Shown: positions 1-6,168 of the stretch, piece after piece
How the letters are laid out: each line of letters opens with the position of its first letter
Numbering within the stretch: position 1 is the first letter of the stretch
Assembly (NCBI GenBank): GCA_029051915.1
Contig: JAIDKM010000119.1
Coordinates: 1 to 12,647 of the forward strand
Length of the DNA: 12,647 nt
Direction of reading: 5' to 3'
DNA from: Alistipes sp.
GTDB lineage: Bacteria > Bacteroidota > Bacteroidia > Bacteroidales > Rikenellaceae
Made by a program: the position numbers and the translations under genes
The notes under the pieces: generated by a model
Databases searched by the model: none
What the model was told of the DNA's origin: nothing
Seen by the model: the letters and a program-made list of their open reading frames with translations, nothing else

Positions 1-1079
1 GCCACGAACTCTTTCATGCCGAATAGATCGAGGAAGAAGCGGGGAACATAGCCGTAGCATCCTTTGCCTTCGTAGGTATCGCTTCCCAGAAGCAGGTCGT
101 TGTAGTCGTGAAAATAGTTGTGGCCGTCGTACATCGTGCTCCAGTCGAAGTCGAATCCCGCGTCGAAGTCCCACAGGGGCCCCATGACCCACGGGCTTTG
201 CGCGTCGTTGCGGTGCATGTACATGCTGCGCGGGGCGCAGAGTTCCACGTTGTCCACGATCTCCTGCACCAGCAGGAAGTCGATCATCGACCGGACGTCC
301 AGCAGCTTCGACACCGCTTCGAAATCTTGTTTCCGGATCGCTTGCTCCAGTTCGCCCAGTTCGTTGCGTATGCCGGCCAGTACGGCGGGCGTCAGGTCTT
401 CGTCATCGGGGAACTTCACGCATACCGGCATTTCATAGGTCGCCGACCAGAAGTTGTCGGCCGCATCGGGCGACAGCTCCGGCCCGTCGTCCGCATCGAG
501 TTGGATCACACGGCCCGTCGTCGCATCTACGTTGATGCGGTAGTCGCCTTCTTCCACTTGTTCGGTTACCATGTAGAGACCGATGTAGTCTCCGTTGAGC
601 GTTACTTCCGCAAATCGCGTGTGGTTCGTGTGGGGCAGTCCCATGTAGGTGCCCATCTCGAACGCCACGGTGTTCATCAGATGGGTCGGGTCGCGGTAGT
701 TGGCCAGCAGCACCCAGTCTTTGTCCGCTTCTATGCCGAGCCACTCCGATTTCTTGTCCAACTTGATGCGGTAGGGCTTCTTCGGGTACCACAGCCACGT
801 CGAGTTGCCGCGGCCGCGGATGCGGGCCGTCCCTTCGTAGTCGGCGTATACGCCTTTGCCGTCCAGTTTCACCGTGCAGTTCACATAGTTCTCTTTCGAG
901 TCCACCGCTGCGCTGCCTTCGGTTTCTATGGCGATCGCCGCTACCGCATAGTTGTGGTAGCTGTCTTCTTCTATCGGGTCGATCACAGGTTCTTTCTGTT
1001 CTCCTCCCTTGTCGTCCGCACAGGCTGTCAGTAGCATCGCGGCGGCTAGTGCTGGAAAGCAGATATGTTTGATTTTCAT
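1..1079 (-). CDS. CotH kinase family lipoprotein (3' end outside window)
   Basis: The frame is open from ATG at 1077-1079 to the window edge: 359 whole codons and no stop, so the C-terminus is missing. Residues 1-20 form a lipoprotein signal ending in lipobox LTAC (Cys20). The next residues, ADDK, are acidic and resemble the Bacteroidota surface-export signal. The CotH-type core follows: RIRGRGNSTW (about 87-96), KKPYRIKL (100-107), WVLLANYRDPTHLMN (122-136), ADVTL-like AEVTLNGDYIGLYMVTEQVE (157-176), a middle helical part, then WVMGPLWDFDAGFD (297-310), whose Asp304/Asp306 lie where CotH proteins bind metal and ATP. Characterised CotH proteins phosphorylate secreted proteins; the Bacteroidota members are largely unstudied, so kinase activity here is inferred. 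The ATG lies 5 nt after the GH51 stop, so the two are probably translated from one mRNA. The target is unknown; a structural surface protein is possible. Confidence 0.87.
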   Translation of the reverse strand, partial: MKIKHICFPALAAAMLLTACADDKGGEQKEPVIDPIEEDSYHNYAVAAIAIETEGSAAVDSKENYVNCTVKLDGKGVYADYEGTARIRGRGNSTWLWYPKKPYRIKLDKKSEWLGIEADKDWVLLANYRDPTHLMNTVAFEMGTYMGLPHTNHTRFAEVTLNGDYIGLYMVTEQVEEGDYRINVDATTGRVIQLDADDGPELSPDAADNFWSATYEMPVCVKFPDDEDLTPAVLAGIRNELGELEQAIRKQDFEAVSKLLDVRSMIDFLLVQEIVDNVELCAPRSMYMHRNDAQSPWVMGPLWDFDAGFDFDWSTMYDGHNYFHDYNDLLLGSDTYEGKGCYGYVPRFFLDLFGMKEFV

Positions 1080-1084
1080 GGATT

Positions 1085-3917: not shown

Positions 3918-3921
3918 GATC

Positions 3922-6168
3922 TTATTCGGTTTTCGTTTCCAGTTCTTGCCACGAGGGCGGCGTTACGCCCAGCAGGTTGCGGACAAAGAAGTCGTAGCGT
4001 TTGTGTTCGCCGTATCGTTCGCCCATCGTGTGGTGTACGCCCGGCAGAACGACCAGTTCGAAATCTTTGTTCGCCTTGATGAGCGCATCCGCCACCTGCA
4101 TCGTCGACGCCGGGTCTACGTTGTCGTCCAGTTCGCCCACCACCAGCATCAGCGGGCGCGTCAGCAGATGGGCGTTCTCCACGTTCGAGCCTTCCCGGTA
4201 TTGTTCGCCGATCGGGTAGCCCAGCCATTGTTCGTTCCACCAGATCTTGTCCATCCGGTTGTCATGGCAGCCGCAGGCCGAGTAGGCCGCTTTGTAGAAA
4301 TCGGGGTGCAGCAGCACGGCCGTCGTCGATTCCTGGCCGCCTGCCGAGGCCCCGAAGATGCCTACGCGGTCGATGTCCATCTGCGGATACTTCTCCGCCG
4401 CTGCTCGGATCCAGAGCTTGCGGTCGGGGAATCCGGCATCCTTGAGGTTCTTGTAGCATATGTCTTCGAACTTCTTCGAGCGGAACGAGGTGCCCATGCC
4501 GTCCAGCTGCACGACGATGAATCCCAGCTCCGCCAGCGCCGTCATGTTGTAGTCGTAGCTGCGGAAGCTCTTGGGTACATAGTGGCTGCCGGGGCCTGCA
4601 TAGATGTATTCGATCACAGGATAGCGCTTCGCCGGGTCGAAGTTCGTCGGTCGGACGATGATGCCCCAGATGTCGGTTTCGCCGTCGCGGCCTTTGGCCG
4701 TGAATACTTCGGGCGCACGCCAGCCCGCGGCTTCCAGCGCCGAGATGTCGGCTCGTTCCAGTTCCATGATCTCACGGCCGTCCGTCGCATCGCGTACGAC
4801 CGCTACCGGCGCCGTCTCCACGGTCGACGATACGTCTACCAGCAATTTCCGGTCTTCCGAGAGCCATGCTTCATGGTTCCCTGCCGAGGGGGTCAGACAG
4901 CGCATGCCGGTGCCGTCGAAGTTGATGCGGTAGTAGCGGATGAAATAGGGGTCTTCTTCGCCGCCTACGCCGCTCGCCGTGAACCAGATCGTCTGCGTCG
5001 CTTCGTCCACGTCGAGTACTTCGCGGACATACCACGGGCCTCGCGTAATCTGATTGATTACCTCGCCGCGTTGCTTGTCATAAAGGTAAAGATGGTTGTA
5101 ATTGTCGCGTTCCGACATCCAGACGATCTTCGTGTCGTCTTGGGTGTCGTGGCGGAAATAGCGTGTGTAGTTGACGAACGTCTCGCTGTGTTCTTCCACG
5201 ATCGGACGTACTTGGCCCTCCAGCGATAGTTCCAGAATGCGGTAGTTCTGGTGGCCGCGTTCGTTGTATTCGAACGTGATGCCGCGGCTGTCCGTGTTCC
5301 ACCCGCTAATGTGCAGGTCGTATTGCTTGTCGAAAAGTTCCGTCGTCGGAATTATGGCGCGTCCCGTCTCCGCTTCGAAAAGGCACGGCGTCCGGAACGG
5401 CAGTTCGTCGCCCGGTTTAGCATACTCTTGCTTGTGCAGTTTGGGCTGCAGTTGGTCGGCCGGCGACGATTCCACATAGTAGATGTAGTGCTTCACTGCC
5501 GGGCGGATGCGGCACGAGGCTACGTATTTCGAGTCGGGCGACCATCGGATGTAGGCCGAGTAGTAGCCGTCTTCGCAGCCGTCCTGGCTCAGTTCGCGTA
5601 CCGTGCCCGTCGCCACTTCGCGTACGGCTACGTTGTGGTTGCGGATGAATGCTTCGTAGCGGCCGTCGGGCGAGGTTACCGGCCCGAACTCCTTTTCGTC
5701 GTCCATCTCCATCCAGTGGCGTTCGGGGCCGCGGGGCGGAATCGGCCCGGCGTCGCTCAGCACATTCTTGCGAATGGCGTAGTTCCACCAGTGGCCGTCC
5801 AGTACGAAGCGGAGCGTGTCGCCTTGCCGCGAAAGATGCGCATAGCCCAGCGGCAGCGCTTCGGGCCGGGTCTCCCGGCCGGTTGCCTGTTGGATGGCGT
5901 TTGCCAGCCGGGCATGGTCGAACAGCGGCTTGCGGCTCTTGCGGTCGGCATCCACCCGCACATAGCAGTCGCCTTCGGGCGTGTGGCGGATATACCAGAA
6001 CGAATGCGAACTGCCGATCCACGAGGGCCGGACGTTCGAATAGTAAACTTTGTCGGGCGAGAAACGTTCGGAGAGCGAGTAGGCGCGGCGATAGTCTTCC
6101 AGTGTGCCTTGCGCCGATGCGTTCCATGCGGCAAAGAGGGTCAGCAGTAACAGGATGCTTTTTTTCAT
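3922..6168 (-). CDS. Secreted S9 serine peptidase, DPP4-like
   Basis: The 748-residue protein has a signal peptide (1-19, NASA before QG), so it works in the periplasm or outside. Residues about 40-500 form a beta-propeller of the DPP4 N-terminal type, with repeats such as WSPDSKYVA (209-217) and the family-typical stretch YYVESSPADQLQPKLH (230-245). The C-terminal alpha/beta hydrolase has GASAGG (606-611, nucleophile Ser608), GELDDNVDP (678-686, acid Asp682 or Asp681) and GVHHTMG (710-716, probable His713). In place of the DPP4 pair that grips the substrate N-terminus there is Glu199-Asp200 by eye alignment, so an acidic pair may remain. DPP4 normally has GWSYGG around Ser; Ala at 607 and 609 suggests a divergent specificity. 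Prolyl dipeptidyl peptidase is the first guess; another peptidase or an esterase is possible. It opens the exported block, 98 nt after araB, and its stop is 4 nt from the metalloprotease start. Confidence 0.9.
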   Translation of the reverse strand: MKKSILLLLTLFAAWNASAQGTLEDYRRAYSLSERFSPDKVYYSNVRPSWIGSSHSFWYIRHTPEGDCYVRVDADRKSRKPLFDHARLANAIQQATGRETRPEALPLGYAHLSRQGDTLRFVLDGHWWNYAIRKNVLSDAGPIPPRGPERHWMEMDDEKEFGPVTSPDGRYEAFIRNHNVAVREVATGTVRELSQDGCEDGYYSAYIRWSPDSKYVASCRIRPAVKHYIYYVESSPADQLQPKLHKQEYAKPGDELPFRTPCLFEAETGRAIIPTTELFDKQYDLHISGWNTDSRGITFEYNERGHQNYRILELSLEGQVRPIVEEHSETFVNYTRYFRHDTQDDTKIVWMSERDNYNHLYLYDKQRGEVINQITRGPWYVREVLDVDEATQTIWFTASGVGGEEDPYFIRYYRINFDGTGMRCLTPSAGNHEAWLSEDRKLLVDVSSTVETAPVAVVRDATDGREIMELERADISALEAAGWRAPEVFTAKGRDGETDIWGIIVRPTNFDPAKRYPVIEYIYAGPGSHYVPKSFRSYDYNMTALAELGFIVVQLDGMGTSFRSKKFEDICYKNLKDAGFPDRKLWIRAAAEKYPQMDIDRVGIFGASAGGQESTTAVLLHPDFYKAAYSACGCHDNRMDKIWWNEQWLGYPIGEQYREGSNVENAHLLTRPLMLVVGELDDNVDPASTMQVADALIKANKDFELVVLPGVHHTMGERYGEHKRYDFFVRNLLGVTPPSWQELETKTE

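Follow-up and report, generated by a model that had tools for sequence, protein, structure and literature searches.

A Pro-Pro endopeptidase-like metalloprotease beside an arabinose operon of Alistipes sp.: a proposed envelope module for arabinosylated proline- and hydroxyproline-rich glycoproteins

The window analyzed here (the whole stretch of 12,647 nucleotides (nt)) is one entire contig (C23) of an Alistipes sp. metagenome-assembled genome (MAG; 1.78 Mb, 392 contigs, 82% complete). It carries a four-gene unit made of an S9 serine peptidase, a metalloprotease resembling the Pro-Pro endopeptidases (PPEPs), a glycoside hydrolase (GH) of family GH51 and a CotH-family protein, next to genes for arabinose catabolism (Table 1). 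The identified genes all lay on the minus strand, in the transcription order galM (cut), symporter, araD, araA, araB, S9, protease, GH51 and CotH (cut). The preliminary description of this DNA, which relied on its letters only, had reported four tightly packed genes beside a complete arabinose pathway, and its inventory was borne out: the coordinates gave spacings of 4 nt (S9-protease), 13 nt (protease-GH51) and 5 nt (GH51-CotH), Pfam returned the expected families for S9, GH51 and CotH, and araA and araB scored over NCBIfam cut-offs, the epimerase over subfamily models. A Pfam scan of the nine window proteins also agreed with it in detecting no SusC or SusD family, so that the adjacent susC/susD pair that defines a polysaccharide utilization locus was missing from the window. 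On C117 and C374, the contigs that overlap the window ends, BLAST likewise found no susC/susD match, and an Rfam search of the window gave no match.

Table 1. Features of the window and the evidence on which each was named.
Feature	Position	Strand	Basis
CotH-family lipoprotein-like protein (ATG at 1079; cut by contig edge)	3..1079	-	Pfam; C-terminus on C374
Predicted GH51 alpha-L-arabinofuranosidase, signal-peptide-like start	1085..3094	-	Pfam ASD1_dom + Alpha-L-AF_C + CBM_4_9
PPEP-like HExxH metalloprotease, lipobox-like cysteine	3108..3917	-	Motif, model, structure matches
S9 exported serine peptidase (DPPIV_N + Peptidase_S9)	3922..6168	-	Pfam, solved-structure matches, motif alignment
Hairpin, possible terminator or attenuator	6207..6251	-	RNA fold -33.8 kcal/mol, z -2.5, 3/200 shuffles as good
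araB ribulokinase	6267..7937	-	NCBIfam over cut-off
araA L-arabinose isomerase	7942..9513	-	NCBIfam over cut-off, match begins at residue 23
araD L-ribulose-5-phosphate 4-epimerase	9473..10168	-	NCBIfam subfamily models over cut-off
Sodium:solute symporter (araP-like)	10190..11863	-	Pfam SSF; TIGR00813 over cut-off
galM/araM mutarotase (cut by contig edge)	11973..12647	-	Pfam; N-terminus on C117

The protease matched no Pfam (E <= 0.001) or NCBIfam family. Its AlphaFold model (predicted local distance difference test (pLDDT) score of 91) had the PPEP fold, with PPEPs as top structural matches in both Foldseek and VIA-align, at 17-19% identity across the aligned part. Residues His157, Glu158, His161, Tyr196 and Glu203 were invariant in 27 aligned relatives and formed an HExxH motif, a catalytic Tyr and a Glu zinc ligand 7 residues later, as compared with PPEP-3 numbering (PMC12828418), an equivalence set by motif and spacing and not by a printed residue superposition. 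The model and the alignment support the window protease having the fold and catalytic residue set of the Pro-Pro endopeptidases (M34/ATLF group), and the corresponding specificity is predicted for it. Relatives at E <= 1e-3 amounted to 6203 clustered sequences. Read by eye with no predictor, the HExxH and CotH proteins started with lipobox-like cysteines, and the S9 and GH51 proteins with signal-peptide-like stretches.

The nearest solved chains of the S9 peptidase were bacterial enzymes of dipeptidyl peptidase IV (DPP IV) type, one of which we take to be a prolyl tripeptidyl peptidase. Propeller and hydrolase domains were both present, and the Ser, Asp and His motifs occurred in 27/27 aligned frames. 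The double Glu of DPP IV anchors the substrate N-terminus; this segment was missing in the window S9, the EE stretch of 2ecf being an insertion relative to it in the HMMER alignment, and 23 of the 27 aligned frames (window included) had no insertion at that site, which sets them apart from DPP IV (S9B). The dipeptide release that the DPP4-like label of the preliminary description would imply for this peptidase is therefore doubtful.

The predicted GH51 arabinofuranosidase had both the catalytic and the C-terminal domain of its family, with MgGH51 as closest solved chain (E 1.1e-85). An arabinose link based on GH51 alone was considered and set aside, the pairing of GH51 with ara genes being ordinary and already described (passages of PMC4666351). 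The CotH domain scored 121.7 bits in Pfam (cut-off 23.8). Its sequence matched nothing among solved structures at E <= 1, and the model of a relative (53% identical, locus L148) was used instead; this model, with a pLDDT of only 68, matched the Bacillus cereus CotH kinase fold (5jd9/5jda, E 4.9e-10). The window CotH would thus belong to the CotH kinase family by domain and by fold, with kinase function as a prediction. Bacillus CotH phosphorylates a Ser-rich spore protein (passages of PMC7821199). As extracellular ATP is scarce, our guess favors a binder over a kinase for the exported CotH.

Both window ends could be followed onto other contigs of the same MAG. The right end overlapped contig C117 over 136 bp at 97% identity, inside galM, and C117 carried a GH127 beta-L-arabinofuranosidase and a GH97 upstream of galM. 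The left end overlapped contig C374 over 115 bp at 96.5% identity, inside CotH; C374 completed CotH and then held a frame of 346 amino acids (aa) on the opposite strand. C117 and C374 likely adjoin the window, and the overlap mismatches at the contig breaks suggest strain variation. If the overlaps are right, the row likely reads GH97, GH127, galM, symporter, araD, araA, araB, hairpin, S9, protease, GH51, CotH. Because the overlaps complete CotH and an opposite-strand frame follows, the unit most likely consists of exactly four genes. A second GH127 of the genome (G000:C391, L211) lay divergent from a hybrid two-component-type regulator.

The surroundings of protease relatives were surveyed in named genomes by protease similarity alone, which provided 80 loci (the best 80 of at least 587), L120 of Proteiniphilum acetatigenes and L148 of Maribellus sediminis among them; neighboring frames were clustered, and the clusters were named by scanning one or two of their members with hidden Markov models. 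Genes for sugar removal were recurrent, namely GH127 (cluster c1, 23/80 loci), GH43 (c11, 11/80), GH27 (c9, 10/80) and GH51 (5/80), as were peptidases, with S9 in 21/80 and M24 in 19/80 (c7 in 13, c13 in 9, both in three). Pfam placed the M24 peptidases with aminopeptidase P and prolidase, and their scores stayed below the Xaa-Pro equivalog cut-offs. A third group of companions belonged to hydroxyproline (Hyp) use: trans-4-hydroxyproline dehydratase HypD (c8; 1149.8 and 1157.8 bits, cut-off 1100) in 13/80 loci, a glycyl-radical enzyme activase (c12) in 11/80, whose best match in locus L184 was the HypD activase model, below cut-off, and 1-pyrroline-5-carboxylate (P5C) dehydrogenase (c15, over cut-off) in 7/80. 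CotH was present in 7/80 loci, SusC-like genes in 12/80 and SusD-like clusters in 13/80. Direct neighbors of the protease were S9 (18/80), GH127 (10/80) and CotH (5/80), these counts being lower bounds as mechanical frame picking did not keep the protease frame itself in 9/80 loci.

The adhesion proteins targeted by PPEP-1 belong to its own species. Their cleavage releases cells (PMC11460543), and the lipoprotein-like start of the window protease and its direct adjacency to CotH in five loci would suit a protease that cleaves a surface protein of its own cell and controls attachment, the sugar genes being incidental. The recurrent neighbors are instead catabolic (HypD, P5C dehydrogenase, M24 peptidases, GH127), and such a self-directed role appears quite improbable.

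Whole-genome controls for HypD, GH127 and CotH covered the genomes of the odd-numbered loci, 40 out of 80, with expected counts computed from rounded genome sizes. HypD was found in 36/40 control genomes (34 over cut-off), mostly as a single copy, and in 7/40 loci against 0.2 expected; two paralogues under cut-off were kept in this count, with a higher expectation as their only effect. GH127 gave 163 matches in 37/40 genomes and was in 9/40 loci (0.81 expected), and CotH gave 81 matches in 25/40 genomes and was in 4/40 loci (0.44 expected). The mutual proximity of these genes was computed from 37/39 HypD matches (the two paralogues under cut-off omitted), 149/163 GH127 matches (a second fragment being among those omitted) and 80/81 CotH matches (a second fragment omitted). 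CotH was modestly enriched near GH127 (7/80, 2.36 expected), and showed no enrichment near HypD (1/80, 0.56 expected). Among 295 genomes of the same order, the protease occurred in 11 (E <= 1e-30) and HypD in 102 (E <= 1e-250; 99 over cut-off); HypD was present in 8/11 genomes with the protease versus 94/284 others (p 0.01, uncorrected for kinship).

Within a sample of 200 genomes of the same family, the protease was limited to its own genome plus two matches of about 18 bits only. Elsewhere in that sample, CotHs detected at E <= 1e-20 shared at most 43% identity with the window CotH, which was 48-55% identical to the seven CotHs of protease loci. As the protease is nearly absent from the family sample and the CotH is closer to those of protease loci, the four-gene unit looks acquired and not family-inherited. 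No contig carried both an S9 match (at least 54% identity) and a GH51 in the 6 same-family genomes holding both. Two loci of the same genus (L095, L105) had ara genes 71-89% identical to those of the window, with no S9, protease or CotH after them, and GH51 about 4 kb from araB (both genes in view). These two loci are what an ordinary arabinose-polysaccharide unit would look like, with GH51 as a distal gene of the ara operon, and the window peptidases and CotH could be unrelated or housekeeping passengers in such a unit. This is unlikely given that S9 adjoins the protease in the 18 loci cited above, nearly all with no ara genes in the fetched stretch, that HypD and GH127 are enriched in protease loci over the genome-wide expectation, and that the protease looks acquired.

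The unit is read here, with a probability of about 0.6, as an envelope module that degrades arabinosylated Pro/Hyp-rich glycoproteins, beside an operon catabolizing the released arabinose. What was observed is the gene content and the contig overlaps, the fold and invariant catalytic residues of the protease, and the recurrent neighborhoods of its relatives; from these we infer the substrate, the order of steps, the cell location and the role of CotH. The arabinosylated-protein module of the preliminary description is in this way supported in large part but not fully, with the PPEP fold, the catalytic residues and the locus companions (GH127, GH43, GH27, Xaa-Pro peptidases, HypD, P5C dehydrogenase) added to it. 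In the proposed sequence of steps, the CotH lipoprotein would hold or modify the substrate protein at the cell surface, GH51 and the GH127 of C117 (just upstream of galM) would remove alpha- and beta-linked arabinofuranose, and the PPEP-like metalloprotease would cleave the Pro/Hyp-Pro/Hyp backbone thus laid bare. Trimming of the resulting fragments would fall to the S9 peptidase, and the symporter would import arabinose into the AraA-AraB-AraD pathway.

Extensin-like plant cell-wall proteins would be the leading substrate candidates. Extensin Hyp usually bears three to four arabinofuranoses, with three beta bonds plus one alpha bond in the four-residue form Ara4 (passages of PMC7263609). Because of these beta bonds and the single alpha bond in Ara4, GH127 plus GH51/GH43 fit the Hyp-arabinosides of extensin. 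Extensin Ser carries alpha-galactose, which would suit GH27.

Several results weigh against this interpretation. The four-gene order, whose conservation elsewhere the preliminary description had made a test of its proposal, recurred in parts only: besides the S9-protease pair and the occurrences of CotH counted above, the S9-protease-GH51 core was found in 2/80 loci (L115, with 15 and 4 nt between the genes, and L116, with 8 and 4 nt; both are ruminant MAGs of Bacteroidales, and their GH51 proteins are 74-75% identical to that of the window), and no other examined locus had all four genes together. No counted GH, peptidase or Hyp gene was present in 28/80 loci. The counts are not independent, since related loci stand among the 80 (four come from Labilibaculum, and five have one CotH-double-protease order in common). 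The profile tie of the protease to PF07737 was weak, with 1/27 members matching (E 0.0024). The 98-nt interval between araB and S9 holds a strong hairpin, which may uncouple the four-gene unit from ara transcription; a terminator scan did not list this hairpin, and a clear T-run was absent. Arabinose genes were near the protease in only 3/80 loci, as S9-protease near araA, symporter and araD in L139, near a symporter in L148, and in a single-strand row in L184 (Muribaculaceae). The latter ran galM, symporter, NrtR/AraR-type Nudix regulator, araD, araA, FGGY kinase, P5C dehydrogenase, protease, M24 peptidase, HypD, GH97 and activase.

HypD brings in further contrary evidence. Only 3/13 HypD loci (L166, L174, L193) also had a counted glycoside hydrolase, as did only 4 of the 17 loci with HypD, activase or P5C dehydrogenase, and HypD was not enriched near GH127 (1/37, 0.98 expected). 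As HypD and GH127 are not close beyond chance, the sugar-type and Hyp-type loci seem mostly different, with the protease common to both. The same figures would favor as target a Pro/Hyp-rich protein that bears no arabinose (collagen, for example, or a different proline-rich protein), with arabinosidases nearby for another reason. On the other side, GH127, GH43 and GH27 often accompany the protease in the other loci, L184 combines HypD with ara genes, and in the window the protease stands with ara genes, GH51 and, via contig overlap, GH127, which makes an arabinose-free target improbable. At E <= 1e-250, no HypD was found in the window's own genome (82% complete), and hydroxyproline harvest itself is for this reason unproven in this organism. 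If the module does act on arabinosylated glycoproteins, the harvest of this Alistipes may be confined to arabinose and to amino acids other than hydroxyproline.

A broader proposal, held tentatively and at somewhat less than even odds as a whole, is that the protease is the first of a large, so far undescribed family of Hyp-aware Pro-Pro endopeptidases in Bacteroidota, within a general type of "glycoprotein utilization locus" for feeding on extensin-like proteins, on their sugar as well as on their backbone. The parts of such loci would be GH127/GH51/GH43, GH27, an anchorless S9, CotH, Xaa-Pro peptidases and HypD, with CotH serving at the surface as a receptor for the Ser-Hyp-rich backbone or as its modifier.

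Some components are already known, namely GH51 beside ara genes (passages of PMC4666351) and the PPEPs of Clostridioides, Paenibacillus and Geobacillus (PPEP-1/-2/-3), whose fold and catalytic residue set are common to the window protease. Unlike these, the window protease is lipoprotein-like, comes from Bacteroidota and lies among carbohydrate and amino-acid catabolism genes, its specificity being predicted only. Words starting with "bacteroid" or "hydroxyproline" are absent from the text of the PPEP-3 paper (PMC12828418), and among the titles and abstract openings listed by searches of open-licence literature there was no Bacteroidota PPEP and no locus degrading the backbone of hydroxyproline-rich glycoproteins (HRGPs). 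The HypAA/HypBA2/HypBA1 system of Bifidobacterium longum resembles the window in pairing alpha- and beta-L-arabinofuranosidases for arabinosylated Hyp-rich proteins, here GH51 and GH127; its target is the sugar, with beta-Ara2 imported through an ATP-binding cassette (ABC) transporter, and it uses GH121, with no peptidase among its genes as named in passages of PMC7263609. HRGP use in Latescibacteria was predicted from GH127 plus general peptidases (passages of PMC4454575). Loci of protease relatives include genes of anaerobic trans-4-hydroxyproline catabolism (HypD, activase-like, P5C dehydrogenase and Xaa-Pro peptidase), whereas HypD was not detected in the window's own genome, as said above. 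The open-licence literature searched says little on how anaerobic bacteria of the gut and rumen deal with Hyp-rich wall glycoproteins, and a PPEP-fold family of more than 6000 members, genomically tied to beta-arabinofuranosidases and elsewhere to HypD, offers a concrete route for backbone degradation. It also suggests a source for the hydroxyproline consumed by such bacteria, and could yield enzymes cutting polyproline/Hyp segments.

The arabinose genes shared an araM-araP-araD-araA-araB-like order, with an arabinofuranosidase downstream, with the AraR-regulated araMPRDAB and distal abf3 of Bacteroides. Compared with that cluster (passages of PMC4666351), the window had no araR between symporter and araD (21-nt gap), and added two peptidases between araB and GH51, CotH after GH51, and GH127 upstream. 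In L184, as in Bacteroides araMPRDAB, the Nudix araR stood between symporter and araD; the window had no such gene at 10169-10189. The araD equivalog TIGR00760 scored narrowly below its cut-off for the epimerase (377.9 versus 389.1). The mechanical araA start at 9513 overlapped araD; since the family match begins only at residue 23, the real start probably lies near 9450.

Among the 80 loci, five (L150, L167, L185, L191, L192) encoded a fused double protease of about 540 aa that contains two PPEP-like domains. It came directly after CotH, which in 4/5 of these loci was preceded by P5C dehydrogenase, and HypD followed within the fetched stretch in 3/5. Two families of unknown function, DUF5695 (about 900 aa, 11/80) and DUF6055 (15/80), were also encoded in protease loci (L139, L148, L158 and others), and may be further HRGP-acting enzymes.

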